Source: Asanoa sp. WMMD1127 (GTDB taxonomy: Bacteria > Actinomycetota > Actinomycetes > Mycobacteriales > Micromonosporaceae). From it: a DNA stretch of 64,000 nt. The DNA lies in the NCBI RefSeq assembly GCF_029626225.1, contig NZ_JARUBP010000001.1, positions 6,138,001 to 6,202,000 on the forward strand, written 5' to 3'. Positions 25,637-63,689 of this stretch are shown here, one piece after another (position 1 is the first letter of the stretch; each line of letters begins with the position of its first letter). The notes under the pieces are model-generated. The model did no database searches. It saw nothing but the letters and a program-made list of their open reading frames with translations, and was not told where the DNA came from. The position numbers and the translations under genes are program-made.

Positions 25637-26122
25637 ATGCCTGCCCGTAGGGTTCTGCCGGACAACAGTGTCCTTGTGCAGCTCCGCCACGACGGATGGC
25701 AATACTCGGACATAGCAGCGCACTACGGGACGACGGAGAACGCGGTCTACCTCCGTCTCCGCCAGGCGAACGCGGTCAAGCCGCGCGCCCGGCACGATGA
25801 CTTCATTCCCTGGCGAGTGGCCAAGGAGCACACGTACGCACACCCGGCCCTGATGCTGCGTTACCTAGCTCAGCGCGAAGCCGGCGAGAGCCCCCTACCC
25901 CCGGCGAAGTCGAGGATGGTCGATAAGTGGCTACGGGGCATCCGGGAGAACGGGCTAGTCCTGTGCTACGACCGGGAGCAGCCACCGAACGACGCCTCCC
26001 CGAAGACGGGTGGCTTCTTCTACATGCGGCGTAGGCCAGAGGATGGCGACAACCTGATCAGACCCCCTGAGTTGGTCGAGGAGATCCGCGCAAGCGCCGG
26101 CCGCCACCGGGGCCGCGGGTAG
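25637..26122 (+). CDS. L5 gp71-like immunity repressor (stoperator-binding type)
   Basis: This 161-aa protein is chosen from ATG 25637 with GAAGGAG 8 nt upstream. An N-terminal helix-turn-helix is clear: LRHDGWQYSDIAAHYGTTEN then AVYLRLRQA. The remainder resembles mycobacteriophage L5 gp71 as I recall it: a Trp-rich segment, a WLRGIRENGLVLCYD core matching the L5 LRDNDLVLEFD region, then TGGFFYMRRRPEDGDNLIR matching GGGFRYVPR...LIR. L5 gp71 keeps the lysogen silent by binding many dispersed asymmetric sites. Here it is the first gene inside the attachment junction, and a repeated 10-bp site occurs throughout the phage. Identification is by remembered similarity, without alignment. Confidence 0.78.
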   Translation: MPARRVLPDNSVLVQLRHDGWQYSDIAAHYGTTENAVYLRLRQANAVKPRARHDDFIPWRVAKEHTYAHPALMLRYLAQREAGESPLPPAKSRMVDKWLRGIRENGLVLCYDREQPPNDASPKTGGFFYMRRRPEDGDNLIRPPELVEEIRASAGRHRGRG

Positions 26123-26138
26123 CGCGACCGACAGCGAG

Positions 26139-26170
26139 AGCCCTTCCGGGAGCCACCCGGGAGGGCTTTT
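26139..26170 (+). terminator. Rho-independent terminator after the repressor gene
   Basis: AGCCCTTCCGGG pairs with CCCGGGAGGGCT (one G-T pair) around a 5-nt loop and is followed by TTTT. It separates the repressor from the downstream early genes. Confidence 0.85.
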
Positions 26171-26221
26171 CGCTGGTCAGGGCCAGTGTCACGGCTCACT
26201 AGTGCCAAGTGTCGTACCCTC

Positions 26222-26305
26222 AAGCTATAGTTGGGAACGTAAGAGCGAAGGGGTCAGGCCCGCTACGGCGGGCCTTCCAAAGCCCCCGAAGCTTAGATTG
26301 GGAAA
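26222..26305 (+). promoter_or_regulatory. Two copies of the AAGCTTrGrTTGGGAA motif upstream of the whiB-like gene
   Basis: Copies lie at 26222-26238 (AAGCTATAGTTGGGAAC) and 26289-26305 (AAGCTTAGATTGGGAAA). The first contains TATAGT and the second TTAGAT, both plausible -10 hexamers. A short GGCCCGC/GCGGGCC hairpin separates them. The second copy ends only 15 bp before the whiB-like start. Confidence 0.5.
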
Positions 26306-26320
26306 CTCAGGAGGTGGCCG

Positions 26321-26803
26321 GTGTCAGACGGTAGCCCGTGCGAACGCAACCCGGAGCTTTGGTTCGCCAGTCGCGGTAAGGACGTTGAGGCCGCGAAAGC
26401 CGGGTGCGAGGAGTGCCCCCTGAGCCGGTACAACGCGTGCCGCGAAGAGGGCTGGAAGCATGAGTTCGGCGTCTTCGGTGGGCTGTCCCACGTCGACCGC
26501 CAGGCCATCGACCCTAAGCGTTGGAACGACATTCGGCTTGCCAACCGTCGCGACTCGAACGCCCGTGACGAGATGATCCGGGCTTCGGAAAACCTGGCCC
26601 GACTGGCGGGTGAACTTTCGGAGGATCAGCGCGGCGTGGCCCGTGGGATTCTTGCGACGGAACGGGATCGAGTTACCGCCGGGCAGCGAATGATGTCCGA
26701 GTTGGGAATGAACGCGTCCCAAGTCGCTTCTCTGTTCGGTGTTACCCGTGACTCGGTTTATCGGTGGGTGACGTGGGAGCGCCGCGGGGCGCGTGCGGCC
26801 TAG
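26321..26803 (+). CDS. WhiB-family iron-sulfur regulator with C-terminal helix-turn-helix
   Basis: This 160-aa protein starts at GTG 26321 after AGGAGGTGG. It has four WhiB cysteines (Cys7, 29, 32, 40; spacing CxxC then C) and the Wbl turn motif as GVFGGLS instead of G(V/I)WGG. Most Wbl proteins are 80-130 aa. Here a second region near the C-terminus, LGMNASQVASLFGVTRDSVY, looks like a helix-turn-helix, so iron-sulfur sensing and DNA binding may be joined. Phage WhiB proteins are known from mycobacteriophage TM4, where one interferes with host WhiB2 and superinfection. A regulatory role in host takeover or lysogeny is inferred. Confidence 0.85.
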   Translation: MSDGSPCERNPELWFASRGKDVEAAKAGCEECPLSRYNACREEGWKHEFGVFGGLSHVDRQAIDPKRWNDIRLANRRDSNARDEMIRASENLARLAGELSEDQRGVARGILATERDRVTAGQRMMSELGMNASQVASLFGVTRDSVYRWVTWERRGARAA

Positions 26804-26893
26804 CCGATCGGATGATGTGCGTTTCCGCACGTCAGCCCTAGTGTCTGCCTCACGTGTCAGCAAGGTTTCAGCCCGAACGGAGTACGGCCGAAA

Positions 26894-27256
26894 GTGAACA
26901 CCGAAGCACGCCTTGAACTGCCTACCGTCGACCTCACTTTGCCGTTTGTCCGGCTCGATGCCGGCGACGTGACGGAGCTTCGTGAGCTTGATGTCCTGAT
27001 CGACCTCCCTAACGTTCTCTCCCTCGTCCGCTTCCATTTCCGGAGCGGAACGGGGTTCGAGATGATCTCATCCGGCATGTGCGACGGTGAGGACTACAAC
27101 GCCGCCGTAACCGCCATGGAGGGCGCAAAGCTGATCGCGGTCAACTCCCACGGAGTGAACGGCTTCGGCGAGCCCATGAACCGCTCTTGGTATTGGGCCG
27201 ACACCGGCACCCCCGATCACATCCGCGTGATGCGGCAGCAGCTCCGCCCGTACTGA
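26894..27256 (+). CDS. Hypothetical phage protein
   Basis: A GTG at 26894 opens a 120-aa soluble protein with alternating beta-like hydrophobic stretches and no known motif. It is preceded by the TGTCAGCAAGG leader element (26855-26865), as in the small-gene array, and followed by its own terminator, so it is an individually transcribed unit. Confidence 0.65.
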   Translation: MNTEARLELPTVDLTLPFVRLDAGDVTELRELDVLIDLPNVLSLVRFHFRSGTGFEMISSGMCDGEDYNAAVTAMEGAKLIAVNSHGVNGFGEPMNRSWYWADTGTPDHIRVMRQQLRPY

Positions 27257-27266
27257 CACTTGAGGG

Positions 27267-27292
27267 AGGCCCCCGACCGGGGCCTTTCTTTA
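27267..27292 (+). terminator. Rho-independent terminator
   Basis: AGGCCCC pairs with GGGGCCT, followed by TTCTTTAA, just past the stop of the 120-aa gene. The next motif copy (27300-27316) follows at once. Confidence 0.75.
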
Positions 27293-27299
27293 AGCCCTC

Positions 27300-27316
27300 A
27301 AGCTTAGATTGGGAAC
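27300..27316 (+). promoter_or_regulatory. AAGCTTAGATTGGGAAC motif before the Cas4-like gene
   Basis: The 17-bp motif AAGCTTAGATTGGGAAC lies directly between a terminator and GGGAGG, the ribosome-binding site of the next gene. It is likely to be the promoter, or part of it, for the operon that begins at 27329. Confidence 0.5.
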
Positions 27317-27328
27317 CTTGGGAGGTAG

Positions 27329-28162
27329 ATGGACGAGACCAAGAAGCACCGAAGGAGCGTCAGCCAATGGTCGAGCTTCGTGAAGTGCTCAGAGGGCTAC
27401 CGGTTGGAGAAGATCGCGAAGGCCCCCGCGCGACCCGCAGCGTGGTTCGCGCAAGGGATCGCGGTGCACAGCGCGTGCGAGTTCTGGGAAGAGGGCTTCC
27501 GCCAGGCGCACCCTGACGACGTTGTCGACCTGTACGAGACGGAGTTTGACCGCCTCATCGCGGAAGCGACGGAGACGGAGCCGGATCTCGGTCGGTGGCT
27601 AACCGGGGGACGCGTCAGGGCCTCCGACGACATAGGTAGGCGTAGGACCAGAGGGGCCGAACAGGTACTTGGGTACCTCCGGTATGCCTCCGAAGCTCAA
27701 GAGCGGGTTTGGCTAATCGGTGGCCAAGAACCGGCCCTCGAAGTCGAGTTCGAACTAGACCTTGATGGCGTAACGGTGAAGGGCTTCATCGATCAGATCA
27801 TCGAGTGGCCAACCGGGCAGATTGGCCCTAGGGACGTCAAGACCGGTAGCAAGCGCCCGGACTGGCCCTTTCAGCTAGGCGTGTACCGCCTGGCCATCGA
27901 ACAGGACTACGGCTACTTGCCGACGTGGGGCGATTTCTACATGGCCAAGGACAACCGGCCGGATGCCCCCGTGGATCTCAGCGCGTTTACACGCTCTCGT
28001 GTCACTCGCTGGTTTCACGACATGGATAGGTCTGTGAACGCGGGCCTCTTCCTACCCAACCCCGGAGATCACTGCCGCACGTGTGGCGTCTCCGACTTCT
28101 GTTCCGCGGTCGGCTCACGTGCCGACGAATACCCACCCAAGGAGGAAACACAGCTTGACTGA
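27329..28162 (+). CDS. Cas4/RecB-like PD-(D/E)XK exonuclease
   Basis: The 277-aa protein has the nuclease core: an N-terminal KCSEGYRLEKI segment, a His in the AVHSACEFWEEG helix, then GFIDQI and RDVKTGSK, matching D-x(n)-(D/E)xK. Near the C-terminus CRTCGVSDFC provides three Cys which, with the N-terminal Cys, fit the Fe-S cluster of Cas4/AddB-type nucleases. L5-like phages carry a Cas4-family gene in the same region. The likely role is DNA end processing in replication or recombination. There is no CRISPR system in the window. The start is ATG 27329 with GGGAGG upstream. Confidence 0.85.
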   Translation: MDETKKHRRSVSQWSSFVKCSEGYRLEKIAKAPARPAAWFAQGIAVHSACEFWEEGFRQAHPDDVVDLYETEFDRLIAEATETEPDLGRWLTGGRVRASDDIGRRRTRGAEQVLGYLRYASEAQERVWLIGGQEPALEVEFELDLDGVTVKGFIDQIIEWPTGQIGPRDVKTGSKRPDWPFQLGVYRLAIEQDYGYLPTWGDFYMAKDNRPDAPVDLSAFTRSRVTRWFHDMDRSVNAGLFLPNPGDHCRTCGVSDFCSAVGSRADEYPPKEETQLD

Positions 28163-28583
28163 CACTCGCGATGACTTCGTGGTGAGCTTCAAGCCGCACC
28201 CCGGCTACGACGCTCCGCTGTTCGTGATCAAGGGCAGCACTGCCGCGGAGATCGCTGACAAGATCGCCTCGGTTGAGGCAACGGGCCTGTTCGCAACCGT
28301 GGGCAACGCCGACAAGACCTTTAAGGGGTTCTTCCTCGTCGGTAGCGAGCTTGGCGGACAGCCGGTCGAGCACCCGTCAACCGTTCAGGCCAACGGCTAC
28401 ACGCCGCCGGCTACGCCGCCCCCGGCAGCTCCCGCCGGCACTCCGCCCGGCATGACTGCCCCCACGTGCCCCCACGGCACGAAGGTCTTTAAGACGGGCC
28501 AGGGCAAGCGCGGGGAGTGGAAGGCGTGGATGTGCCCGGCTCGCCAGGGTGACCCGTCACAGTGCAAGCCGGAATGGCTCTGA
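28155..28583 (+). CDS. Hypothetical phage protein with Cys-rich C-terminus
   Basis: This 142-aa protein starts at TTG 28155 (AAGGAGG 9 nt upstream) and overlaps the nuclease stop by 8 bp. An alpha/beta N-terminal domain of about 80 aa is followed by a Pro/Ala linker and a C-terminal module with TCPHGTKVF and WMCPARQGDPSQCKP, possibly a small zinc-binding element. It is between the nuclease and the DnaB-like ATPase, so a replication or recombination role is likely, but no family is recognised. Confidence 0.75.
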   Translation: MTDTRDDFVVSFKPHPGYDAPLFVIKGSTAAEIADKIASVEATGLFATVGNADKTFKGFFLVGSELGGQPVEHPSTVQANGYTPPATPPPAAPAGTPPGMTAPTCPHGTKVFKTGQGKRGEWKAWMCPARQGDPSQCKPEWL

Positions 28584-28645
28584 GCCTCTGACCGCGTACG
28601 CCTGGCCGGCACCGACGACCGGCCGGGCCTCCGGAAGGGGGCCGA

Positions 28646-29455
28646 ATGCTCACGCTCACTAGGGCCAAGCTTTCCCGGGGCAGTGCGGGTGAACCACTCC
28701 CGACCGTCTTCAAAAGCCTGGCCGGGGAAGGCGTTCACATCCGCCGTGGACAGCTAACGCTGATCGCCGCGGCTCCGGGTGTGGGTAAGTCCGTCAAGGC
28801 TCTTACGGTCGCTCTCAGGTCCGGGGCACCCGGGTATTACGCCTCCGCTGACACGGATGCATTCACGATGTATCTCCGGGCCGGTGCGATGTTCACGGGT
28901 TGGTCAACCCACGACATCGAAAACGCCGTGATGGCAGAGAACACCGCACAGGTAGACGCGCTTCTTGAGGCCAAGAGCAACGTCCGAATGGACTTCGCGG
29001 GCCGCATCGAGCTTGATTACCTCGAACAGGATCTCTACGCCTACGCGGCAACCTACGGGGAGTGGCCGCACTTCATCGTGATTGACAACATCTCGAACCT
29101 TGAAAGCGAAGGGGAGGGATACCAAGCGCTTGAGGCTTCCTGCGACTACCTACACGAGCTAGGACGCAAGACCGGAGCCGCAATCATCGCGCTTCATCAC
29201 GTGACCGGCGAGTTTGACGACGGGATCAAACCCGTTCCGCTCTCCGGACTCCGCGGGAAGATCAGCAAGGTTCCTGAGCTGATCCTGACGCTTTACCGGA
29301 ACGCCGAATCAACCCGGCTGTTCGTGTGCCCGGTGAAGAACCGGACCGGGCGCAACGACAGCTCCGCCCAATGGCAAGTGCCGCTTGCGTACGACCCTTC
29401 GCGGATGCGGCTCGCAGACATCAGCACAGAATCGGAGGCCACCCCTTATGGCTAA
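28646..29455 (+). CDS. DnaB/RecA-like ATPase (replicative helicase-type)
   Basis: This 269-aa P-loop ATPase of the RecA/DnaB fold has Walker A as APGVGKS (residues 43-49) and Walker B as FIVIDN. ALHHVTG is the sensor/H-motif strand and the Arg-rich LSGLRGKIS region follows. It is smaller than DnaB and lacks its N-terminal domain. L5-like phages have a DnaB-like helicase in the same gene order. It probably acts in phage DNA replication together with the primase encoded 640 bp downstream. ATG 28646 is preceded by GGAAGGGGG. Confidence 0.85.
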   Translation: MLTLTRAKLSRGSAGEPLPTVFKSLAGEGVHIRRGQLTLIAAAPGVGKSVKALTVALRSGAPGYYASADTDAFTMYLRAGAMFTGWSTHDIENAVMAENTAQVDALLEAKSNVRMDFAGRIELDYLEQDLYAYAATYGEWPHFIVIDNISNLESEGEGYQALEASCDYLHELGRKTGAAIIALHHVTGEFDDGIKPVPLSGLRGKISKVPELILTLYRNAESTRLFVCPVKNRTGRNDSSAQWQVPLAYDPSRMRLADISTESEATPYG

Positions 29456-29657
29456 GGTCAAGGTCGAGAAGAACCCCGTTATCACTCTCACGATGACGGG
29501 CCAGGAGGCGCGGGCCTTGTTCCTCTCGATCAAGCCGGACAACGTCCGCACGTTCGCGAACATGGCGAACCGGGCTGGTCTTGAGTCGGACGCACGGGCC
29601 ATCGAGAACAAGCTTGGTGACATCCTGGCCGATCTCGGTATCCGTATTGCCGACTAG
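29448..29657 (+). CDS. Small hypothetical phage protein
   Basis: The 69-aa product from ATG 29448 overlaps the ATPase stop by 8 bp and is preceded by GGAGG. It is a mixed alpha/beta protein with no recognised motif. Tight coupling suggests a helper of the ATPase or the nuclease that follows. Confidence 0.7.
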   Translation: MAKVKVEKNPVITLTMTGQEARALFLSIKPDNVRTFANMANRAGLESDARAIENKLGDILADLGIRIAD

Positions 29658-30075
29658 GGAGTGCGTCGTATGCGGGGGCGCGCTATCTGGCTCGCAACGG
29701 CTGTACGACAAACCCGAGTGTGCCAAGCGGAAGGCACGTGCCGATTGGGTCCTGAAAACCTACGGGATCACCCTCGAAGAGTGGGACCTGATCTGGAAGC
29801 ACCAAGGCGAATGCTGCGCGATATGCAAGCGGAAGCCGCGGGATGGGGAGACGTTCCATCTCGACCATGAGCACGCGTTTAAACAGGCTGGCCCTGTGCG
29901 GGGCATCCTCTGCCCCTATTGCAATACGCGGTTGGTCGGACGCCTTAAGAGCGCCGACCGTGCCCAAGCCCTAGCCGACTACCTCAAGAACCGGCCCGCT
30001 GTTCAAGCTCTCGGCCGGGAGGTCATCGCGCCCGGAAGGCCACCGCGGAGAAGGGTCCGCCGGCGTACCCGATGA
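29647..30075 (+). CDS. Endonuclease VII-like HNH endonuclease
   Basis: This protein of about 142 aa belongs to the recombination endonuclease VII group. The N-terminal CVVCGGAL zinc pair is followed by GECCAICKRKP, the HNH core LDHEHAF, and LCPYCNTRLVGRL. The enzyme family resolves branched DNA before packaging. L5 gp59 is a member in the equivalent position. The start is uncertain: TTG 29647 overlaps the previous stop by 11 bp, and GTG 29617 is also in frame. A GTTTAAAC site (29877-29884) lies inside the HNH-coding region. Confidence 0.85.
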   Translation: MPTRECVVCGGALSGSQRLYDKPECAKRKARADWVLKTYGITLEEWDLIWKHQGECCAICKRKPRDGETFHLDHEHAFKQAGPVRGILCPYCNTRLVGRLKSADRAQALADYLKNRPAVQALGREVIAPGRPPRRRVRRRTR

Positions 30076-30090
30076 AAAGGAGGTTCCCGA

Positions 30091-30492
30091 GTGACTGAGA
30101 AGCCACCGATTGACGCCGTTCTAGAACACTACGGGGCCGCCTTCGTGCCGCTAGCGCCGAGATGGCGACGCATGAAATGCCCATTCCATGAGGACCGTAC
30201 GGCTTCGGCATCGGTTCACGGGGAGCTTCAACGGTTCCGCTGTTTCGCTTGCGACGTAAACGAAGACGCCTACGGGCTAGTCATTTGGAAGGGGGATGCA
30301 AGAGATTTCCCTGGTAGTAAGCAATTCTTGGAAGACCTTCTTGGGCGAAGCTACGGAGACGTATCACAAGGCTCTGATGGCAAACCCGGCAAGTCCCGCC
30401 GTCGAGTATTTGAAGGAGACCCGGGGCCTGTCAGGGGCCAACGCTCAATTCTTCAAGCTGGGTCTCGTAGAAAGCCCCTTGCCGGGGCATGA
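30091..30492 (+). CDS. DNA primase, N-terminal zinc-binding part (frame 1 of a split gene)
   Basis: This 133-aa frame from GTG 30091 (AAAGGAGG upstream) encodes a CHC2 zinc domain with Cys30, His33, Cys51 and Cys54 (MKCPFHEDRTASASV, RFRCFACD), followed by the usual helix FLEDLLGRSYGDVS. The rest of the primase lies in the +1 frame, which overlaps from about 30281. Residues after about GRSYGD probably do not belong to the functional protein unless it acts alone. Cluster A phages also show the primase as two overlapping frames, so this is likely a conserved arrangement and not damage. Confidence 0.82.
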   Translation: MTEKPPIDAVLEHYGAAFVPLAPRWRRMKCPFHEDRTASASVHGELQRFRCFACDVNEDAYGLVIWKGDARDFPGSKQFLEDLLGRSYGDVSQGSDGKPGKSRRRVFEGDPGPVRGQRSILQAGSRRKPLAGA

Positions 30493-30967
30493 GCAATACG
30501 AGGGAAAGCTAGCAATCCCCTACCTGACCCGCTCCGGAGTCGTGAGTATGCGGTTCCGGGCCATCCCTCCCGGCGACGCTACCGGCCCGAAATACCTTTC
30601 GGTCCCTGGCGACATCCCGCGGCTATTCAACCCCGCAGACCTCGATAGGCGAGAGCACTTCGTGTGTATCTGCGAAGGGGAGTTCGACGCGATGACCGCG
30701 CACCAAGCGGGATTGCCGGCAGTCGGAATCCCCGGAGTCAACGGCTGGAAAGAGTATTACAGCCATTGCTTCAAGGGATACGAGAACGTGTTCATCCTGG
30801 CGGACAACGACGACAAGGGCCAGGGGGAGACGTTCGCGGAGAAGGTCGCTAGCCAAGTGGCCAACGCTCGAATCGTGTTGATGCCATCCGGTCATGACGT
30901 CAACTCTTTTGTCTTGGCCGAAGGGCCGGACGCACTCACCAAACGATTGGAGGTCAAGAGTGCCTGA
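30296..30967 (+). CDS. DNA primase, Toprim catalytic part (frame 2 of a split gene)
   Basis: The 223-aa frame could start at ATG 30296 but is open back to 30281. From YHKALMANPASPAVEYL on, it matches the primase core. The Toprim motifs are CICEGEFDAMTAHQ (catalytic Glu) and ILADNDDKGQG (metal-binding Asp-x-Asp). It is read +1 relative to the zinc-binding frame and overlaps it by 197 bp. A +1 shift near 30343-30361 would join GRSYGD to TYHKALM and restore a full primase. Its own ribosome-binding site is unconvincing. Confidence 0.82.
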   Translation: MQEISLVVSNSWKTFLGEATETYHKALMANPASPAVEYLKETRGLSGANAQFFKLGLVESPLPGHEQYEGKLAIPYLTRSGVVSMRFRAIPPGDATGPKYLSVPGDIPRLFNPADLDRREHFVCICEGEFDAMTAHQAGLPAVGIPGVNGWKEYYSHCFKGYENVFILADNDDKGQGETFAEKVASQVANARIVLMPSGHDVNSFVLAEGPDALTKRLEVKSA

Positions 30968-31325
30968 CTTCGAAACCAAGGATTCCGGGGTGCGCTGGTC
31001 CTACCCAACCGGGATGGTGCGGGACACCCAAGACGGTAAGCCGCGGTTCGATCTGCTCATTCCGAAAGGCATCCCGTACGACGAACAGATGATTACCCGG
31101 TTCGCGGCCCTGCTAGCCCGCGGAGCCGTGAAGTACGGGGATCGGAATTGGGAGAAGGCCACCACCCAAGAGGAGCTTGACCGCTTCCACGCATCCGCCT
31201 TCCGGCACTTCATGCAGTGGCTAGCCGGCGAGACGGACGAGGATCACGCCGCCGCAGTCACCTACAACGTGTGGGCCGCCGAGAAAGTCAAATACGAAAT
31301 GAGGAACCTTGCTGAGACTGTTTAA
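30960..31325 (+). CDS. dATP/dGTP diphosphohydrolase-like protein
   Basis: This 121-aa protein starts at GTG 30960 and overlaps the primase stop by 8 bp. It has the phage family pattern DGKPRFDLLIPKGIPYDE, then ARGAVKYGDRNWEKA, FHASAFRHFMQWLAGETDED and a final Ala-rich helix. This resembles the dGTP-diphosphohydrolase N-terminal family (PF18909/DUF5664). Such proteins remodel deoxynucleotide pools. It fits the nearby RNR, ThyX and dCMP deaminase. Confidence 0.72.
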   Translation: MPDFETKDSGVRWSYPTGMVRDTQDGKPRFDLLIPKGIPYDEQMITRFAALLARGAVKYGDRNWEKATTQEELDRFHASAFRHFMQWLAGETDEDHAAAVTYNVWAAEKVKYEMRNLAETV

Positions 31326-31713
31326 ACGCCGCCGAACCGTCCAGGCCGAAGAGGTCGAGGTTCCCATGGTCCGCCTGTTCGAGGAGCCGATTCAAGAGGA
31401 CATCCCGGAAGCGTTCGACTTCGAGCTTGAGATGTCGGTCGGGCCTCGGAAGATCGCGGCAATCTTCATGGATCAGGGTTGGCAGCTTGCCGTTGGCGAC
31501 ACCATCGGTATCCCACTCCCGTACGGGATCGCGCAATTCATCGCGGAACAGTCCGCGGCCCTGCTCGAATCCCCGGAAGCGGCAGCTTACGCGCCTATCG
31601 GCCGAATGCTGTTCCTGAAAGACGACGTTGACTTTCCGGATTCCGTCGACATCTACCTACACCTCGGTACCGCGGCCCGCGTGCACACCGACGAAACGGA
31701 GGAGACCCTTTGA
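31309..31713 (+). CDS. Hypothetical phage protein
   Basis: This 134-aa acidic protein starts at TTG 31309, overlapping the previous gene by 17 bp. The basic start LLRLFKRRR is encoded over a GTTTAAAC site. No domain is recognised. It is translationally coupled to the RNA ligase-like gene by a 4-bp TTGA overlap. Confidence 0.7.
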   Translation: MLRLFKRRRTVQAEEVEVPMVRLFEEPIQEDIPEAFDFELEMSVGPRKIAAIFMDQGWQLAVGDTIGIPLPYGIAQFIAEQSAALLESPEAAAYAPIGRMLFLKDDVDFPDSVDIYLHLGTAARVHTDETEETL

Positions 31714-32390
31714 GCGACTACCCGAGTTGGCCGAAGATCCCGCGACTCAGCAAAGACGCTGTGATCACGGAGAAGATCGACGGGACGAACGGACTTGTCT
31801 CGATCACCCGGGAGACGTTCGGAACGGGCGTCGATCGGCCAGACGGTGTAAACGTCGTGTTGGACTACACCACCATTGACGAAGAGGGCATTCCCCAATG
31901 GGAGTGGCACATTCGAGCCGGCTCCCGGAACCGATGGCTTACCCGGCAGCAGGACAACGCGGGCTTCGCCGCATGGGTCGAGCGGAACGCGGGAGCGCTG
32001 GTCCAGCTTGGCCAGGGCAACCACTACGGGGAATGGTTCGGCTCCGGTATTCAGCGCAACTACGGACTTGCCGAGAAGCGGTTCGCTCTGTTCAACGCTG
32101 GCCGTTGGTACGACCCGCGGGACGAGGAAGCGAACGACTTCGTACGCGAATACTTCCCGAAGGTTCAGCCGTGCCCCGACGTGTGCACCGTGGTCCCGAT
32201 CCTTTGGGTTGGCTCCGGTGCCGAGATGGGGAATGCGATCGACTTCCTTCGCGACGCGATGAAGGGCCGCATGTCGATTGCGGTTCCCGGATTCGAGCAC
32301 CCGGAAGGGCTGATCGTCTACCACACCGGGGCGAGTAACTACTTCAAGGTTCTGTTCGATGGCGACACCCCGAAGGGAGCGACTAAGTGA
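31710..32390 (+). CDS. RNA ligase-like nucleotidyltransferase
   Basis: This 226-aa protein from TTG 31710 (GGAGG upstream) has the nucleotidyltransferase motif I as EKIDGTNG, with the adenylated Lys near residue 23. Motif III-IV-like parts follow (HYGEWFGSGI; RFALFNAGRW) and the protein ends with EGLIVYH and FKVLFD, where motif V usually supplies a Lys. The size fits phage RNA ligase family proteins without a C-terminal domain. Repair of host-damaged RNA is the usual proposal. It overlaps both neighbours by 4 bp. Confidence 0.8.
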   Translation: MSDYPSWPKIPRLSKDAVITEKIDGTNGLVSITRETFGTGVDRPDGVNVVLDYTTIDEEGIPQWEWHIRAGSRNRWLTRQQDNAGFAAWVERNAGALVQLGQGNHYGEWFGSGIQRNYGLAEKRFALFNAGRWYDPRDEEANDFVREYFPKVQPCPDVCTVVPILWVGSGAEMGNAIDFLRDAMKGRMSIAVPGFEHPEGLIVYHTGASNYFKVLFDGDTPKGATK

Positions 32391-32587
32391 TTGCGATTTT
32401 CAAGATTCAAATGGACCCGGCGATGGTTCCCCCGGGGCAGACAACCCCGCGGCTGGTCGAGGGAGAGGATCAGTTGACTACCACGCTGACCATGCTCCGC
32501 AACCGATGGGGCCAGACCGTCATTCAGAGCATCACCCTTATTGCTGCTGAGCCCATCGACGTTACGGCTTCGTACCCGGGTGAGTGA
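32387..32587 (+). CDS. Small hypothetical phage protein
   Basis: The 66-aa product from GTG 32387 overlaps the ligase stop by 4 bp (GTGA) and the next gene by 8 bp. It is a beta-rich, acidic protein without a known motif. Confidence 0.65.
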   Translation: MIAIFKIQMDPAMVPPGQTTPRLVEGEDQLTTTLTMLRNRWGQTVIQSITLIAAEPIDVTASYPGE

Positions 32588-54169: not shown

Positions 54170-54174
54170 GCCCC

Positions 54175-54635: not shown

Positions 54636-54651
54636 GTTTAAACGCTCCGTT

Positions 54652-56263: not shown

Positions 56264-56685
56264 ACTCGACACGTAACGCTGACCTCTGTTTCAAACTGAC
56301 ACTCGTAGGTGTCGCGGTCCGAAGGGAACGCACGCATACTCCGCGGCTGGAAGCCGGAAGTGATCGCGAGCCCGCCAAGCGATGGATCAGCCATCAGTGC
56401 GGCCAGGAAATCCCGCGACATCAGTACCGCGTACGCCTCAACTTCTTTGGCCGTAGCGCCGGACATCTGCACATCGAAAATCACCTGAACCGAGAAGGCT
56501 TCGTTGCGGCTCCGGTTCGTCGCCCACTCGGACGACTCCCAACGGATCTCGCCAACGGCAATCCATTTCTTCTCGGGAGCACGCATCGGGAATCCGTACG
56601 TGACCTGAACCTGATCGGTAGGGACAACCGGCATTCCCGCGGCCACCGTTTCGAGGTAGCTCTTGACCTCAACCGCCTTGGTCAC
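56260..56685 (-). CDS. Tail terminator-like protein
   Basis: This 141-aa protein from GTG 56685 overlaps the connector gene by 4 bp. It has the alpha/beta plan of tail terminators/neck proteins (SYLETVAAGMPVVPTDQVQV; FSVQVIFDVQMSG), and its position just before the major tail gene fits. The assignment rests mainly on position and size. Confidence 0.65.
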   Translation of the reverse strand: MTKAVEVKSYLETVAAGMPVVPTDQVQVTYGFPMRAPEKKWIAVGEIRWESSEWATNRSRNEAFSVQVIFDVQMSGATAKEVEAYAVLMSRDFLAALMADPSLGGLAITSGFQPRSMRAFPSDRDTYECQFETEVSVTCRV

Positions 56686-57491: not shown

Positions 57492-57494
57492 CCG

Positions 57495-57722
57495 TCAGCC
57501 CTCCTTGCGGGGACGACCGGGGCCGCGCCGCGGAGCAGCGTCGGCAGTCTCGCGACGTTCGGCCGGGGTAGCGCGACCAACGGCAGCAGGGCCGATCATC
57601 TCGGCGTAGCCGTCTTCCATGAGGGAGACCGCCGTAGTCGGCTCTACCTCGATCTCGTCACCGGGGACGAGGATGCGACCCAACAGCAGGCCGGGAACGG
57701 GGAACAGGATTCGAATGCGCAA
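57495..57722 (-). CDS. Small virion-operon protein with AT-hook-like tail
   Basis: This 75-aa protein from TTG 57722 follows the capsid terminator. It has a beta-rich first half (LLGRILVPGDEIEVEPTTAV) and a basic RRGPGRPRKEG end. The first half resembles small head-associated proteins found after capsid genes in actinophages. The function is unknown. Confidence 0.65.
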   Translation of the reverse strand: MRIRILFPVPGLLLGRILVPGDEIEVEPTTAVSLMEDGYAEMIGPAAVGRATPAERRETADAAPRRGPGRPRKEG

Positions 57723-57748
57723 CTTGCCTCCTTCCCGCGCACAGAAAA

Positions 57749-57772
57749 GGGGGCCGCCCGAAGGCGACCCCC
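57749..57772 (-). terminator. Leftward terminator after the major capsid gene
   Basis: GGGGGTCGCC-TTCG-GGCGGCCCCC on the - strand, followed by TTTTCT. It lowers downstream transcription relative to the capsid gene, a usual design in phage late operons. Confidence 0.85.
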
Positions 57773-57784
57773 TATCCCGATGGA

Positions 57785-59008
57785 TCAGGCAGTGACGGTC
57801 AGGGCCTTGACGCTGTTCAGGTCGAACAGGTCACCCGAGCCACGCCACGACACCTTGAACGCGATCACGTCACGGTCAAAGCCGTACTCGTCCGACCGCG
57901 TAACCCGCAGGCTGTTGACCTGACGGATCATGTACTTCGACGGGTCACCGAACAGGACCGTCTTCGCGGCAGCACCGGCAATCGCCATGTTGGGATCGGT
58001 CAGAACCGCCTTGCCCCAAATGGTGTCCGGCTCGCCAGCCTGGACCGAAGGACGCCACACGTAGTTGCCCGTGCCATCCACGATCTTCGACAGCACCGGA
58101 ACCGCAGCGTCGTTGAACATGTAAGCGCCGTTGCGCCGGTACGGAGCGGTAACCGCGTACTGGAGATCGAGCAGGTTCTGGAAGGTGATACCCGCCAGGT
58201 TCGCCGCGTTGACGCCCGAAGTCGTCGCGCGAGTGACCCAACCCCACGGCTTGTTCGTGCCGTTACCGAGCAGCAGGTCAGCCACGATCGCATCCGCGAC
58301 AGTCTCACCCGCGTCCGCGGCCAGCATCGACAGGATCGGCAGAGCCGAGTCCGCGACGATTTCCTGAGTGGCCTCAACGATGACGCCGTACTTGTAGGCA
58401 CCGATGTTCGTCTTGGTCCAAGACGTGTTCGCCTTGTTGTACGCCGTGTTCTCAGCCTTGAGGATGGTGCCGCTCTCAAGCGTCACCGGGGGAGTGGCCG
58501 GGTTCAGAGCGTTCTTGATCGGGAACTCCATGACCTCACCACCGGAAGTGGTGAGCAGGCGAGCCCGGCCGAAGAACTGGCTCCGGTTCCGCATGGCCTC
58601 AAGCACCTGAGCGGCAAACGTGGTCGGCTTGGTGTTGCCGCCCTTCGTCTGGTCCGCGTTGGTGGACTCCGCGGTACGAAGGTCGAACTCGACCGCCTCC
58701 CGGCGACCAAGCGCCAGGTCCCGAAGCTCCTGAGCTTCGTCGCGGACCTCGGTCCGACGCTCGACACCCCGGCCGCCGGAAAGCTTCGCGGCACGCTCGT
58801 TGATCGAGCGCACCTCCGCCTCAGCCTCAGCCGCGCGAACGTGACCGTCCGCCTCCTTGGCAAGCTCCGCCATGTGCGCGTGAATGGCCTCGACCCGCTG
58901 ACGCTTGTCAGCCTCGGTCAGGGTCGCGTCCTCAAGAACCGCCTTGCGCTGCTCGTCCGCACGGGCACGCTTCGCCAGGGCCGCGTTAGCGGCCTCGATG
59001 TAATCCAC
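57785..59008 (-). CDS. Major capsid protein (HK97 family)
   Basis: This 407-aa protein from GTG 59008 has an N-terminal coiled-coil scaffold (delta) domain of about 100 aa, rich in Ala/Glu/Arg, then the HK97 fold: GGEVMEFPI, NIGAYKYGVIVEATQEIVAD, DAIVADLLLGNGTNKPWGWV and a C-terminal VLFGDPSKYMIRQV. The protease encoded upstream should remove the N-terminal domain. Leftward terminators flank the gene. Confidence 0.95.
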   Translation of the reverse strand: MDYIEAANAALAKRARADEQRKAVLEDATLTEADKRQRVEAIHAHMAELAKEADGHVRAAEAEAEVRSINERAAKLSGGRGVERRTEVRDEAQELRDLALGRREAVEFDLRTAESTNADQTKGGNTKPTTFAAQVLEAMRNRSQFFGRARLLTTSGGEVMEFPIKNALNPATPPVTLESGTILKAENTAYNKANTSWTKTNIGAYKYGVIVEATQEIVADSALPILSMLAADAGETVADAIVADLLLGNGTNKPWGWVTRATTSGVNAANLAGITFQNLLDLQYAVTAPYRRNGAYMFNDAAVPVLSKIVDGTGNYVWRPSVQAGEPDTIWGKAVLTDPNMAIAGAAAKTVLFGDPSKYMIRQVNSLRVTRSDEYGFDRDVIAFKVSWRGSGDLFDLNSVKALTVTA

Positions 59009-59064
59009 TGTTAGTGAACCTCTTTCAATGCTTGGGCTAAGAGCCCGAAATTGGGAATGAAAAA

Positions 59065-59092
59065 GGCCCGCACCCCCGAAGGGGCCGGGCCT
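59065..59092 (-). terminator. Leftward terminator between protease and capsid genes
   Basis: On the - strand GGCCCGGCCCC-TTCG-GGGGTGCGGGCC is followed by TTTTTC. The capsid gene starts 57 bp later, so it may have its own promoter there, although none is obvious. Confidence 0.8.
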
Positions 59093-59106
59093 ATCTGCTC
59101 TGGGCC

Positions 59107-59730
59107 TTAGCCGCGCAGAGAAAGGGCCGCAAGTCGCGACCGGATGGCGAACGCCTCAACGTCAAAGTCGGGAGCCGCCGGGGGAGTCCAAAGCTCGCTA
59201 CCGAAGGAAGCCGCCATGTCGAGTGCGCGCTTCGCAACCTGCGAATCGGACGTCAGGTAAGCCGGGTAAGTCACAGGGCTTACGTCGAACAGCCGCAAGC
59301 TCGAAACCGAGCGAAGCGGGAAGTCGTCTTCATCGCGGGTCCAAGCCTCACCCTGCGGGTTGACCTGGAAACCGAAAGACGACTGAGAAACGTCACCGCG
59401 CTCAAGCGCGATCAGAAGGTCACGCACGTAGCTAATTCGCTCGTCCGCGTCGATCTCGTAATGCAGACCGTTGGAGTCCTCCGCAACCCGAAGCGTCTCC
59501 GCCCGGTTGCGACCAAGGATCAGGTTCGGATCGTGGTTCATGAGAGCCCGGATGTCGTCAGCCTTGACGCTCTCCGCGCCGGCCCCTTCAAGGATGGTCT
59601 CCTTGAAGCCGCCCAAGTTCTGACTCCGCGCATTGAACCGGTACGCGTAACCGACAATCGTGTGTCGGTTCTCGCCAGCCGATCGAACCTCAACCTCGGA
59701 GAGGAACACCCGACGCTCAATCTCCGCCAT
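59107..59730 (-). CDS. Prohead (capsid maturation) protease
   Basis: This 207-aa protein of the HK97 gp4/U35 protease type starts at ATG 59730 (GAGGAAGAGAG upstream, 14-bp overlap with portal). Conserved parts are IVGYAYRFN, LMNHDPNLILGR with the catalytic His, DVSQSSFGF with the catalytic Ser, and VSPVTYPAY. It cleaves the capsid delta domain during head maturation. Confidence 0.93.
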   Translation of the reverse strand: MAEIERRVFLSEVEVRSAGENRHTIVGYAYRFNARSQNLGGFKETILEGAGAESVKADDIRALMNHDPNLILGRNRAETLRVAEDSNGLHYEIDADERISYVRDLLIALERGDVSQSSFGFQVNPQGEAWTRDEDDFPLRSVSSLRLFDVSPVTYPAYLTSDSQVAKRALDMAASFGSELWTPPAAPDFDVEAFAIRSRLAALSLRG

Positions 59731-60982
59731 CAGTGCTCTCTTCCTCTTTATCCTCGGCCGCGGGATCATCCGCCGGCTTTGGTTCCGGTTCAGGCTTGGG
59801 AGCGGGAGCCGGCTCCGGCTTGACCCCCAATTCCTGTAGGTTCATGGGGATGTAGTGCTTGCTGCCCTTGCCGCCCGGGATTGGCTCCATGTCCTCAAGC
59901 GCTCGAACCTCATCGAGCGTGAAGAAGCCATTCGTGACCGCGTACACGTACGCCTGGAATCGCTCCATCGTCTTAGCGCGGAGCTTCGCGGCAACGTTGA
60001 ACTTGATGTACTGGCCATTCACCAACAGCCGGGAGAAAGCCTGCTCAAGTCGAGTCAGCCACGGAACAAGGGTGTACTCAACGAAGAACGAATTCTGTTC
60101 CTCGACACCGGAGCCCCACGACGATTGCACCGAAGGGTCAATCATGTGCGGAGGCACCCGGTAGATTTGCGCAATCTGGATGTTCTGAAAGCGCCGCGTT
60201 TCGAGGAACTGAGCCTGTTCGGGCGTGATGGAAATCGACTTCCACGTTGCCCCGCCCGTGAGGATGCCGACCGCGTGACTGTTCTTGAGTCCCGCGTGAC
60301 TCTTCCGGAGCATCTTCCCGAGAATCGCGACTTCGCCAGGCTTCGGCGTACCCGGGTGTTCGACAACACCCGCCATCGTCGTGCCCTGCGAGAAGAACCG
60401 TGCGCCGAACTCTTCGGCCGCCAGGCCAAGCCCGATCGCTTCCTTCGCGTGGTCAATCGGGGAGATTCCGCGACGCTGGCCCGGCACAGTGAAAGCCGGG
60501 ATGTGCAGGATGTCTTTAGCGCCGTAGGTCTTGCCGTTGTACGTGTACCGCGGCTCCGCCGAATCCTCGTCAACGACAACCTGAGTGGGATCGAGCACCC
60601 AAAGGGAAACAACCTGGCCCTTGTCATCCCGCGGAGTCAGGATGAACGCGTTTCCATCCTCACCCAACAGCGAGATCATGACTTTGTGCCAGAACGTGTA
60701 AGGCGTATCGAACGGGTTGGGCTCGATCAGCCACCGCGGGGAATCGACCGAAGACTTCCGGCCCTTAGCCTTCTCCCGCCGGTACGTGTCGACCGGCAGC
60801 GAAGCCACACCGTCAGCCACGAGGGACTGAGCCGCCCACACGGACACAAGCTGTCGAGCCCGGTCCGGGTTCACCTTGACGCCGCTCGCTGTCGGAGCTG
60901 CTGTCTCAACGTCCCGCGCCCAATCGGAAGCAGGGCCGCCCACGGAGGCCATCCGCTTCTCGACCCGTTTAAACAGGCTCAC
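59717..60982 (-). CDS. Portal protein (HK97 family)
   Basis: This 421-aa protein from GTG 60982 shows portal hallmarks: WAAQSLVADGVASLPVDTYR, the DILHIPAFTVPGQRRGISPI region, FFVEYTLVPWLTRLEQAFSR and a Pro/Lys/Glu-rich C-terminal tail. It forms the dodecameric ring for DNA packaging. Its first codons lie over a GTTTAAAC site (60966-60975, encoding LFKRV). Confidence 0.95.
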   Translation of the reverse strand: MSLFKRVEKRMASVGGPASDWARDVETAAPTASGVKVNPDRARQLVSVWAAQSLVADGVASLPVDTYRREKAKGRKSSVDSPRWLIEPNPFDTPYTFWHKVMISLLGEDGNAFILTPRDDKGQVVSLWVLDPTQVVVDEDSAEPRYTYNGKTYGAKDILHIPAFTVPGQRRGISPIDHAKEAIGLGLAAEEFGARFFSQGTTMAGVVEHPGTPKPGEVAILGKMLRKSHAGLKNSHAVGILTGGATWKSISITPEQAQFLETRRFQNIQIAQIYRVPPHMIDPSVQSSWGSGVEEQNSFFVEYTLVPWLTRLEQAFSRLLVNGQYIKFNVAAKLRAKTMERFQAYVYAVTNGFFTLDEVRALEDMEPIPGGKGSKHYIPMNLQELGVKPEPAPAPKPEPEPKPADDPAAEDKEEESTDGGD

Positions 60983-61146
60983 TCGTCAACCGCCCAACCG
61001 ATCAGGCAGAGGAAGCCGCCGGCTAGGAACAGCCCAAGCCACAACCCGAGAGCGAAACCGCCGGCAGCGAACACGGCCAGGCCCGCAATCTGTAGCGCGC
61101 TAGCGCGGGTCGAACGATCTCCAATCGTCTTCCTGATCGCCGTCAT
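60979..61146 (-). CDS. Small membrane protein between TerL and portal genes
   Basis: The 55-aa product from ATG 61146 has a basic start and two close hydrophobic segments (LQIAGLAVFAAGGFALGLWL; FLAGGFLCLIGWAVDE). It overlaps the TerL 3' end by 47 bp and the portal start by 4 bp. A small membrane protein here is seen in some actinophages; the function is unknown. Confidence 0.65.
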   Translation of the reverse strand: MTAIRKTIGDRSTRASALQIAGLAVFAAGGFALGLWLGLFLAGGFLCLIGWAVDE

Positions 61147-62866
61147 TCCACGCTTCCATGAACTCATCAAGCGCGTCTCGTTCCTCATCCGTCAACACCT
61201 CCTCTTCTTCTTCTAAGCCGAATTGCATAAAGGTCACGTCCGCGTCACCCTCGAATGGGATCGCAGCGACAAACAGCGCGGAGACGAGAGCGGCGATACC
61301 GTCGATCTTTTCGCCGGACTTCTTCCGGGAAGGCTTCATCAAGCCGTCTCCCGTGATCTCCAATTCCACGTTGTCAGCCATCCACCGAAGGATCGGATTC
61401 GAACCGTGGTGAAGCTGACGTTCGGCAAGCGCACTCTCAAGCGCTTTGCACGGATCGTTTAAACGCGGAGCCGTCTGAGGCACCTTTACCGTTGCCTGCC
61501 CGCGTTCCTCAATCAGGCTGATTAGGTGCGTTGCGTTCCATGGGTCGTAGCCGACCAAATGAATCCGGAACCACTCCGCGTCTAGTGAGACGTGGTTAAG
61601 GATCACGTCGTAATCGGTCGTCTTCCCTTCGGTGACGGTTAGCCAACCGTCCCGCTCCCACGTCTCCATTTGGTCCCGCATATTTGACCGCGCTTCAAGC
61701 GCCGGACGGGGCAGGAAGAAGTGGGGGAGAACCGTAAAGCCGGGATCGTCCGCCGAAGTCGGAGAGCCGCGGAACAGCAGCACCCAAGCCGTGAAGTCCT
61801 GAGTTGACGCCAGGTCGAGCGCACCAACGCACTCCCGGCCCTTAAGCGCTTCCCGGGTGATCTCGGCCGTACCGTTCTCATCCCAAAGCGCCATGTCCAA
61901 CCAGCGCTCCGCCTGGCTCACCCATTGGTTGAGGCGGAACACGCGGAACGCGTTCTGAGCGGACGGCTTCTCCCGCGCCTCCTTGGCTTCCGCCCGGAGG
62001 TTGTTGATGTTCAGGAAGTCACCCAAAGCCGGGTTAGCGAAATACCAACCCGTACCCTTCGGATGTTCGGCGGAAGGAGGTTCCCCTTCATCCCGCCAGT
62101 CCCAATCGCGGGGCACGTTCCGGCGGAACACGAACCGAGCAGGGTCCGTTTCCGGCTTCTTCTCGATCAGCTCCCCGTACTCATGCTCCGCAAGCGCGAA
62201 CGCCGCGGTTGTGTACGCCGCGGTAGTAGCGGCCAACAGCAGAGGCTCTTTACGGGTACCGAAGCCCTGGCGTAGCGAGTCCCAAAGGTGCCGGTCCTTC
62301 TGCGTCAGCACCTCATCGAAGAGGACCGCTGACGGGTTGGTGCCGAGAGCGCCGGCAGCGTCACCGGGTAGCACCTGATAGAAGCTGTTCGTCTTCGCGT
62401 ACACGAGACGCTTCTTGCTGTCGATGATCTCGACAACCTTGGAGAGAGCCGGCGACAGCTCGACCATGCGCTTAGCCGTGTTGTAGACCAAGGACGCTTG
62501 GTCCTTGTCAGCCGCTACGGAGTAAACCTCCGCGGACTCTTCACCATCCGCGACCAAGTGATACAGCGCCAGGGCCGACAAGACTTCACTCTTGCCGTTC
62601 TTCCGGGCCATCTCCATCCACGCGATCCGGTACTGCCTGACCCATTCGTCGTACTGATCGTCATAGGCAACGGTCGCGTACAGCGGACGAATGATCTCGT
62701 CCTTCTGCCAAGCGGCCAGCAAGAACGGAGCCCGTGCGTGCCTACCTTTGGTGTGCACGATGAAGCGTTCAATGAAGTTGATTACGCGTTGAGCCCGCTT
62801 CTCGTCGTAACGAAAAAGGCCCGCCTCCGGGGAGGTCGGGCCGTGTGGGGCGAGAGGGTATTCCAA
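61100..62866 (-). CDS. Terminase large subunit
   Basis: This 588-aa protein from TTG 62866 has ATPase Walker A as MARKNGKS (residues 86-93), Walker B as VLFDEV (181-186), and the coupling motif LLLAATTAA. The nuclease begins at GALDLASTQDF with further acidic residues around EITGDG and KIDGIAAL. It packages DNA into proheads. A terminator-like hairpin lies within the first 20 codons. No small terminase precedes it in the window. Confidence 0.93.
   Translation of the reverse strand: MEYPLAPHGPTSPEAGLFRYDEKRAQRVINFIERFIVHTKGRHARAPFLLAAWQKDEIIRPLYATVAYDDQYDEWVRQYRIAWMEMARKNGKSEVLSALALYHLVADGEESAEVYSVAADKDQASLVYNTAKRMVELSPALSKVVEIIDSKKRLVYAKTNSFYQVLPGDAAGALGTNPSAVLFDEVLTQKDRHLWDSLRQGFGTRKEPLLLAATTAAYTTAAFALAEHEYGELIEKKPETDPARFVFRRNVPRDWDWRDEGEPPSAEHPKGTGWYFANPALGDFLNINNLRAEAKEAREKPSAQNAFRVFRLNQWVSQAERWLDMALWDENGTAEITREALKGRECVGALDLASTQDFTAWVLLFRGSPTSADDPGFTVLPHFFLPRPALEARSNMRDQMETWERDGWLTVTEGKTTDYDVILNHVSLDAEWFRIHLVGYDPWNATHLISLIEERGQATVKVPQTAPRLNDPCKALESALAERQLHHGSNPILRWMADNVELEITGDGLMKPSRKKSGEKIDGIAALVSALFVAAIPFEGDADVTFMQFGLEEEEEVLTDEERDALDEFMEAWNDGDQEDDWRSFDPR
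62813..62842 (-). terminator. Terminator-like hairpin inside the 5' end of terL
   Basis: On the - strand GGCCCGACCTCC pairs with GGAGGCGGGCC (one bulge) and is followed by TTTTT, a full intrinsic terminator 24 bp inside the terL frame. It separates tail-fibre genes from the packaging and head genes and may act as an attenuator. Confidence 0.65.
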
Positions 62867-62882
62867 TCCCGCCCCCTTCCGT

Positions 62883-63689
62883 TTACGAGATCGCGAAGTT
62901 GAACCCCGGAGGAGGGTCGGTTGTGTCGACTGACGTTCCGGTGATCGCTGTCTGATTCGCTCCGCCCCCGGTGATGTCGGGTACGGGCGTACTGATGTCG
63001 GCTTGGTTGAACAGCCACATGGCGTTAGGCCCGCGGGTCAGCCATGCCGCCGCACTGAGATGCATCCCTGATGCCTCAATGGCCGCGTCGCCCGCGGTGT
63101 CCGCCGCGAACGGCAGAGCGTTCGACCAAGCGGCCCGTACCGCGACCTTCGCCAACGGGAAGTCAGAGCCGGCCGCCGACATCTTGATTGAGCCGCCGAC
63201 CCCCGCGGGAGTCCAGGCCGCGCGAGCGTTCGCACCGTTGACGTGCTGCCAGGTTCCGCCCGTGTAGTCGTAGGAGCTGAACCGTGGAGTAGACGTGCCC
63301 GCCGGCTTCCTGGCGACCACGAAGAACCAACGGTTGTTCGTGAGCGCTCCACCGATGGACGCTGCCCCGCTATACCACTGCCAGGCGTTACCCGTGCTGG
63401 TCCCAACCTCGCCGCGGAACGTGCCGTCCGAAGAGTGCGGGGCGAACATGGCCTCGACCGCACCGGAGCCGGTTCGCTTCATGATGAACGCGACCGTTCC
63501 GTGCGTCATGGCGGACAGCGCACCGACACCGGTCACGATCTCGTCATCGATGCCATCGAACGCCCGGACGTACGGGAGAGCCGGCTCCGGGGAGCCGCCG
63601 GCTAGCGTGATCCACTGGCCGTTTAAACGCACCTTGCGGACAGCCGGGAACCAAGCTCCGCCAACGCGGGCCTTACGCATCCGTGTCAT
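62883..63689 (-). CDS. LamG/jelly-roll domain virion protein
   Basis: The protein of about 268 aa from ATG 63689 (or 63680) overlaps the tail-fibre stop by 17 bp. A short N-terminal strand segment (ARVGGAWFPAVRKVRLNGQW) is followed by a concanavalin/LamG-like beta sandwich (YVRAFDGIDDEIVTG; NNRWFFVVARKPAGTS; GGTWQHVNG), as in phage proteins that bind surface sugars. CGTTTAAACG (63620-63629) lies in the first part. It is encoded upstream of TerL. Confidence 0.72.
   Translation of the reverse strand: MTRMRKARVGGAWFPAVRKVRLNGQWITLAGGSPEPALPYVRAFDGIDDEIVTGVGALSAMTHGTVAFIMKRTGSGAVEAMFAPHSSDGTFRGEVGTSTGNAWQWYSGAASIGGALTNNRWFFVVARKPAGTSTPRFSSYDYTGGTWQHVNGANARAAWTPAGVGGSIKMSAAGSDFPLAKVAVRAAWSNALPFAADTAGDAAIEASGMHLSAAAWLTRGPNAMWLFNQADISTPVPDITGGGANQTAITGTSVDTTDPPPGFNFAIS

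Follow-up and report, generated by a model that had tools for sequence, protein, structure and literature searches.

The DNA considered here, a stretch of 64,000 nucleotides from Asanoa sp. WMMD1127 (contig NZ_JARUBP010000001.1, positions 6,138,001 to 6,202,000; referred to below as the window, with its numbering continued past 64,000 into L005), carries a prophage over which a short word with the consensus CGTTTA-V-ACG is dispersed in 33 copies. The first gene of this prophage encodes a member of the L5/TipsytheTRex repressor family, by sequence as well as by predicted fold, and the word is very probably the binding site of its product. It is highly likely that this protein is the prophage repressor and that it uses the copies of the word as operators and stoperators. 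The gene is the following.

25637-26122, plus strand: L5-type immunity repressor of 161 amino acids with a helix-turn-helix (HTH) and a stoperator domain, by homology and predicted fold

A preliminary description of the window had already noted that this open reading frame (ORF) resembles the L5 gp71 repressor, and the relationship is now clear from several kinds of comparison. In hidden Markov model searches the protein matches PHROG 3929 (E 6e-16, residues 1-151) and PHROG 357 (E 1e-15), annotated as 'transcriptional repressor'. With tblastn, 1001 phage records were matched, every one at less than 60% identity; among the matches listed, 41 of 50 are annotated as repressor, and Streptomyces phages, phiHau3 among them, rank first. 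The sole sequence found by phmmer in the PDB up to E 1 is 7r6r, the TipsytheTRex repressor (E 1e-6, residues 10-145), and this is also the one Foldseek match at E <= 0.001 (1.7e-8, 142 columns, TM 0.56) of an AlphaFold2 model built from 15 sequences (pLDDT 82.9, pTM 0.65).

The palindromic core GTTTAAAC occurs 17 times in the window, against 0.21 expected from dinucleotide shuffles, and the variant GTTTACAC/GTGTAAAC occurs 12 times against 0.67, which exactly reproduces the counts made earlier. These sites span 27985 to 63628, and neither GTTTAAAC nor GTTTACAC is present in the host flank (window 1-25400), as had also been stated. The idea of a 10-bp near-palindrome was right as to enrichment and too long as to the word: the full 10-mer is found in only 22 of the 29 window sites, and the strict core is the 8-mer GTTTA[A/C]AC. 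The genome of 7,967,499 bases was searched for three words, with the 8-mer GTTTACAC outside this search, and all 19 copies of GTTTAAAC, all 15 of CGTTTAAACG (13 within the window) and all 11 of CGTGTAAACG (9 within the window) lie inside the prophage, between G000:C1:6165984 and 6206286; the words searched are thus absent from the remaining host genome. The prophage does not end at 63629 but continues past the window with four further sites, so that the whole element has 33 sites in about 44 kb, 19 palindromic and 14 variant.

The occurrence of the word follows the repressor. In 354 genomes of the family, relatives of the repressor were found in 28, at 31 places, and the regions compared comprise 43-100 kb around 22 of these places (own included), three Streptomyces phages and 21 further related loci, with some contigs shared. 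Two regions recur below, G162 (Micromonospora veneta CAP181) and G087 (Catellatospora sichuanensis H14505); L124, L125 and L134 were dropped as repeats of them. Where the repressor is at least 49% identical, 17 of 17 loci have at least two sites, with 174 sites in 346 kb against 3.9 expected, the near-identical IMG/VR pairs L130/L131, L132/L133 and L137/L138 being kept among the 17. Where it is at most 42% identical, 26 loci, whose regions include host flanks, hold 7 sites in 1.56 Mb, and one of the 26 has two or more. The motif tracks repressor relatedness. This upholds that part of the preliminary description which saw a separate immunity group, although not its restriction to phages of the Micromonosporaceae, since close relatives also occur in Streptomyces sp. 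NEAU-Y11 and on IMG/VR contigs of unknown host.

The distant groups have words of their own: TcCtTAGCAAGt in G194 and G309, gAAACCGcTAGTGaGaG in G292, TC.gtcTAtCACAC in phiHau3 and BroPlease, ACTTAGACct in G131, ACCTAAGTttCA in G279b, TGTCaAGCGTTaA in L142 and CaagCGTATAT in L143. The last two are each found on one strand throughout, the word of L142 (repressor 35% identical) at 8 sites and containing the TGTCAAG of L5, and that of L143 (42% identical) at 6 sites. A motif search of 25 regions gave no clear dispersed word in 12 of them, where codon-bias words dominated (G330, G227, G242, G114, G232, G198, G213, G182, G169, G162b, G296b and G276); in the same search G296a was enriched for TACACCTA, Lika gave a weak candidate only, and G279a and G279b gave codon-like words only, the word of G279b coming from other comparisons. 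Off the prophage contig of G087, three copies of GTTTAAAC lie within 1.4 kb (G087:C20:188538-189926).

The sites are listed below, with a strand for the variant form; gene boundaries are from home-made gene calls.

27985-27992, plus strand: GTTTACAC, in a gene
29877-29884: GTTTAAAC, intergenic
31320-31327: GTTTAAAC, in a two-gene overlap
31846-31853, minus strand: GTTTACAC, in a gene, opposing transcription
34066-34073, plus strand: GTTTACAC, in a ribonucleotide reductase gene
35905-35912, plus strand: GTTTACAC, in a ribonucleotide reductase gene
37228-37235, plus strand: GTTTACAC, in a gene
37443-37450, minus strand: GTTTACAC, in a gene, opposing transcription
39031-39038: GTTTAAAC, 81 bp upstream of an early leader, also within the 17-bp spacer of a minus-strand promoter-like pair
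39085-39092: GTTTAAAC, putative operator in a -35/-10 spacer (TTGACT-N17-TAAAGT), 27 bp upstream of a leader
39875-39882: GTTTAAAC, 55 bp upstream of an early leader
41217-41224: GTTTAAAC, 16 bp before a gene start
42549-42556: GTTTAAAC, 44 bp upstream of an early leader
42951-42958: GTTTAAAC, 54 bp upstream of an early leader
43280-43287, minus strand: GTTTACAC, intergenic, 55 bp upstream of an early leader
44201-44208: GTTTAAAC, intergenic
44878-44885: GTTTAAAC, in a convergent gap
46775-46782: GTTTAAAC, in a convergent gap
46866-46873, minus strand: GTTTACAC, in a small called gene
49110-49117: GTTTAAAC, intergenic, late arm
50851-50858: GTTTAAAC, in a late gene
51330-51337, minus strand: GTTTACAC, in a late gene
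52926-52933, minus strand: GTTTACAC, in the tape measure gene
54636-54643: GTTTAAAC, in a 16-bp intergenic gap, position kept in the M. veneta prophage (G162)
57298-57305, minus strand: GTTTACAC, in a head-tail adaptor-like gene, position kept in G162 and G087
57334-57341, minus strand: GTTTACAC, in a head-tail adaptor-like gene, position kept in G162 and G087
60967-60974: GTTTAAAC, at the portal gene start, may be kept by protein sequence
61457-61464: GTTTAAAC, in the large terminase gene
63621-63628: GTTTAAAC, intergenic
64253, 64774, 67561 and 68278: four further sites beyond the window end

Seventeen of the 33 sites lie inside called genes, so that the mainly intergenic placement usual for L5 is not found here. 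A blastn alignment placed 16 of the 33 sites on G162, 14 on G087 and 10 on G279a; the pair at 57298 and 57334 is exactly in place in G162 and G087 and lost in G279a. The site at the portal start is also present in G279b and may reflect the protein sequence.

An overlap with early promoters, usual for L5, is seen at the site at 39085, which sits in the spacer of a predicted promoter. Sites in promoter spacers were also found in G162 (53022 and 54235 in region coordinates), G087 (928, 1954 and 39657) and G279a (50299), the promoter-like pairs being those of a scan with our own script, run with no shuffle control. Many early genes are preceded, 31-57 bp before the called plus-strand start codon, by a second conserved element, the early leader TGTCAGC[AG][AG]G (TGTCAGCAAG), also present in G162, G087 and G279a. 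The copies listed next mostly follow directly after a -10-like element, at 31-41 bp from a gene start.

26855, 39112, 39930, 40750, 41484, 42593, 43005 and 43335: copies of the early leader

A site lies at most 90 bp upstream of five of the eight plus-strand leaders in this prophage, and of 5/9 in G162, 3/3 in G087 and 1/3 in G279a. The 15 distances between site and leader fall mainly into two classes, 27 bp (five cases) and 53-55 bp (six cases), the rest being 24, 44, 46 and 81 bp. The leader, which resembles start-associated sequences, is possibly a further regulatory element located at the 5' ends of the early transcripts. In four early gaps, near-palindromes of the type TGTGGCNTANNGCAC adjoin GTTTAAAC or GTTTACAC (39041-39055, 39858-39872, 42933-42947 and 43264-43278).

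The shape of the sites was compared in the frame GTxTAyAC, with this prophage, G162 and G087 as the three full prophages. Palindromes and single variants number 19 and 14 in this prophage, 9 and 26 in G162, 16 and 13 in G087, and 3 and 4 in L120, which also has one GTCTAGAC; G279a has 6 palindromes and one GTCTACAC. The doubly variant form GTGTACAC is absent from all five of these and from all 21 further loci. With independent variation of the halves, the three full prophages together should hold 7.2 copies (exact P 5e-5, in a test that omits three GTCTAAAC and one GTCTACAC of G162); taken singly, the deficit has P 0.17 in this prophage, 0.0004 in G162 and 0.18 in G087, so that G162 drives the result. 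Since GTGTACAC is never seen, one half, GTTTA, seems to be obligatory and an asymmetric reading seems to be favoured; this agrees with a single chain that reads DNA through two unlike domains, as 7r6r does. In this prophage 19 of the 33 cores are perfect palindromes, even though the pattern of variation is asymmetric. Position 7 varies between A, C and occasionally G, and the other core positions are nearly fixed. The palindromicity score is 0.72-0.76 in this clade as against 0.39-0.51 in seven other sets.

With respect to direction, it had been observed that the five variant sites of the leftward arm all read GTTTACAC along the coding strand. This observation is correct, but codon usage alone is enough to account for it: in the three prophages GTTTACAC runs along transcription at 26 of 38 coding variant sites (26:12), whereas an independent-codon model predicts 84%. 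Orientation was therefore ruled out as evidence for an L5-like direction. Noncoding sites with a defined direction stand at 7:4, and with 13 further loci added the ratios become 48:22 for coding and 13:5 for noncoding sites. Other members of the repressor family give 25:2 (G194), 28:1 (G309), 19:1 (G292), 29:2 (phiHau3) and 5:5 (G131), with four more sites lacking a direction. For all directed sites the clade thus has 61:27 against 106:11 in these five members (Fisher P 0.0002), and for noncoding ones 13:5 against 79:9 (P 0.06, or 0.011 without G131), in a comparison that leaves out BroPlease, G279b, L142 and L143, counts homologous sites repeatedly and relies on the home-made gene calls. This is suggestive of sites that are weakly oriented in the clade, unlike four of the five other members, in which nearly all sites point one way; the 10 sites of G131 count against the other groups being oriented. 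The one-way orientation relative to transcription that is usual for L5 is in any case not seen here.

The distribution of the two forms fits into the same picture of codon usage. In the three prophages, 38 variant and 12 palindromic sites lie inside genes as against 15 and 32 between them; GTTTACAC prevails in genes and GTTTAAAC between them because GTTTAAAC brings TAA into one reading frame and TTA into another. Of the sites in convergent gaps 5 of 6 are palindromes, and of those in divergent gaps 7 of 9.

From these observations we infer the following mode of action. The two-domain repressor, with its HTH and stoperator domain, would bind CGTTTA-V-ACG, V being mostly A or C. At early promoters, a site between the -35 and -10 elements, or immediately before the -35 element, would allow it to block initiation, and the remaining copies, within and between genes of both arms, would serve as stoperators that end stray transcription in the lysogen, those inside genes by blocking elongation. 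Because the site almost equals its own reverse complement, the protein could probably be seated in either direction, which would relax the one-way rule of L5. A more detailed version, which we offer tentatively and as possible rather than probable, is that of a one-chain repressor whose two domains read nearly the same half-site, with palindromic sites silencing from either side, including at convergent boundaries, and with codon usage setting the form within genes.

Some observations weigh against these proposals. When the 33 sites were mapped to genes, the promoter of the repressor itself had none. Seven of the eight base-contacting residues of 7r6r differ in the repressor (K75 is kept, and R108 is ambiguous by one position), according to contact numbering matched by hand onto the phmmer alignment; such replacement is expected, because the recognised site differs. 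The three GTCTAAAC and one GTCTACAC of G162 were mentioned above. Finally, G279a has a close repressor (50-52% identity) with only 6 sites. Its late arm, however, shares 93-99% identity with the late arm of G279b, a second prophage with another repressor in the same genome, and it carries two insertion-like repeats of about 1.7 kb near the terminase gene. It looks, from its sequence, mosaic and decayed, and was set aside as a counter-example, since the shared late arm and the repeats make it no clean test. The 1.7-kb repeat (L045/L121, G279:C1:459247-462950) is insertion-sequence-like; the region of the second prophage has it as well, at three places.

Other explanations can be envisaged for the same sites. 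They might be operators of a multi-promoter early regulon only, with intragenic and late-arm copies that do not stop elongation. The fixed spacing of sites to early promoters and leaders would agree with this, as would the weakness here of the orientation rule reported as needed in L5. We nevertheless consider it unlikely, as 13 of the 33 sites are in late-arm genes or gaps (46866 to 64774), several of them intragenic and far from starts, and the late-gene pair keeps its position in two relatives and is missing from G279a. The sites could also be read by a symmetric dimer, formed by the repressor or by some other protein, with one half for each subunit and the variant half as a weaker half-site. 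The near-perfect palindrome of the consensus, with its high score, and the 44 of 97 perfectly palindromic cores in the three prophages speak for this, and a threshold version, in which one weak half is tolerated and two are not, would be compatible with the absence of GTGTACAC. Yet the deficit of this form, which comes mainly from G162, the excess of single variants over palindromes in G162, odd if a dimer preferred the palindrome, and the binding of DNA by 7r6r as a monomer, according to the relevant part of PMC9283540, make a dimer unlikely. For a different reader of the sites, three other prophage genes come into view.

26321-26803, plus strand: WhiB-like protein with a C-terminal HTH, adjoining the repressor gene, a rival regulator
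33362-34033: sigma-factor-like protein (PHROG 354, E 5e-9), a candidate reader of the early promoters
42136-42477: Lsr2-like DNA-bridging protein (PHROG 1223, E 3e-32)

All three are plausible by type, the last two being regulators or DNA-binding proteins by PHROG and the first having a homologue in each of the four close relatives compared (G162, G087, G279a and L120). The sigma-factor-like protein has homologues in G162, G087, G279a and G279b, and none in L120 or the remaining distant relatives that were compared. That one of the three reads the sites is very improbable: the motif changes along with the identity of the repressor; G194, G309, phiHau3 and BroPlease, all of which combine dispersed words with an L5-type repressor, show no homologue of the WhiB-like protein at E 1e-4; the Lsr2-like protein lacks a homologue in G087 and L120, and the sigma-factor-like protein in L120, and both of these regions carry sites. 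The WhiB-like protein might be the reader within this clade alone. The suggestion of a restriction-modification, nucleoid or packaging signal can appeal to the word being a short palindrome dispersed on both arms and to the presence of the Lsr2-like nucleoid protein. It is, however, hardly credible in view of the variable position 7 in an otherwise nearly fixed core, the placement in promoter spacers, the co-variation with the repressor, and the lack of a methyltransferase match among the 28 of 71 called prophage proteins scanned with PHROGs.

The extent of the prophage and some further genes are given by the following features.

25460-25473: putative attL core, a 14-bp direct repeat with its other copy at 69609 (L005:5609)
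30296-30967: primase
68585-69640 (L005:4585-5640): tyrosine integrase gene

The repeat pair, found by comparing 24600-25700 with 69600-71600, lies beside the integrase gene and indicates a prophage of about 44.2 kb that extends beyond the window end; its exact end is uncertain because the right-hand repeat falls within the 5' end of the called integrase ORF. Among the called prophage proteins, only the repressor, a DnaB-like helicase and the primase have homologues in all 12 relatives compared. The prophage is mosaic: the early region (25637-38394) is partly related to Streptomyces phages, with ribonucleotide reductase at 60-62% identity, and in the late arm (47353-62866) only short tape-measure stretches matched phiHau3, BroPlease or Lika at E 1e-4. 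Stem-like, terminator-like repeats, GGGAGGCCCC (9 copies) and AGGGGCCTCC (7 copies), occur between 27264 and 49088 and at 66116, many of them directly after early genes.

With L5 and TipsytheTRex the prophage shares a homologous two-domain repressor, tens of dispersed sites, some of them at early promoters, and the copy number of one short site, about 24-34 in those phages and 33 in 44 kb here. Its site, CGTTTAVACG, differs in being near-palindromic, weakly oriented and located in called genes in about half of the cases, whereas the L5 13-mer GGTGGMTGTCAAG and the Bxb1 site GTTACGWDTCAAG are described, in the pertinent passages of the literature, as asymmetric, mainly intergenic and oriented (PMC9283540, PMC3029335, PMC6550527); reversed L5 stoperators are reported there to lose function (PMC9283540). 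As both one-way orientation and mainly intergenic placement are lacking, the prophage is filed apart: it would work like a repressor-stoperator system, with a homologous repressor, yet it is not a standard member.

The Arquatrovirinae phiHau3, Lika and BroPlease, in which a serine integrase is annotated, are taken by us to be R4-like. Such Streptomyces phages are the closest named ones by repressor (31% identity) and by the related parts of the early region. Unlike this prophage, they have other structural genes and a serine integrase, and the site of phiHau3 was computed as TC.gtcTAtCACAC, with 29 of 31 copies in one direction. In the actinophage phiC31, too, the repressor has palindromic sites, conserved inverted repeats located at many early promoters.

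Repressor-stoperator systems with other sites are described, in the parts of the papers that concern them, for Streptomyces R4-like phages (PMC10276819), Rhodococcus cluster CA (PMC5721134) and Mycobacterium abscessus prophages (PMC9934374). The accounts of cluster CA and of the MabJ prophages of M. abscessus give maxima of 20, 25 and 14 dispersed sites (PMC5721134, PMC13313380, PMC9934374); the gp71-type repressor and the dispersal are as here, but the sites, TGTCTATTGTCAAG and cTTgACATACGaCC, are there called asymmetric or said to point mostly one way. Dispersed 17-bp palindromes, TGTTCGGNNNCCGAACA, about a third of them intragenic, are known from cluster O mycobacteriophages; unlike here, the part of the paper that deals with them reports that no stable lysogens were recovered and links no gp71-type repressor to them (PMC4351075). 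Among the papers listed in literature searches, neither palindromic stoperators nor the present word came up. The kind of system is therefore known, from L5, Bxb1, Rhodococcus CA, MabJ and the Streptomyces R4-like phages, and the recognition sequence is new relative to the literature cited. With its homologous repressor and near-palindromic sites, the system lends itself to asking whether the site or the protein sets the direction, and the relatives with words of their own (G194/G309, G292, phiHau3, L142 and this clade) provide a set on which the specificity of both domains could be mapped.

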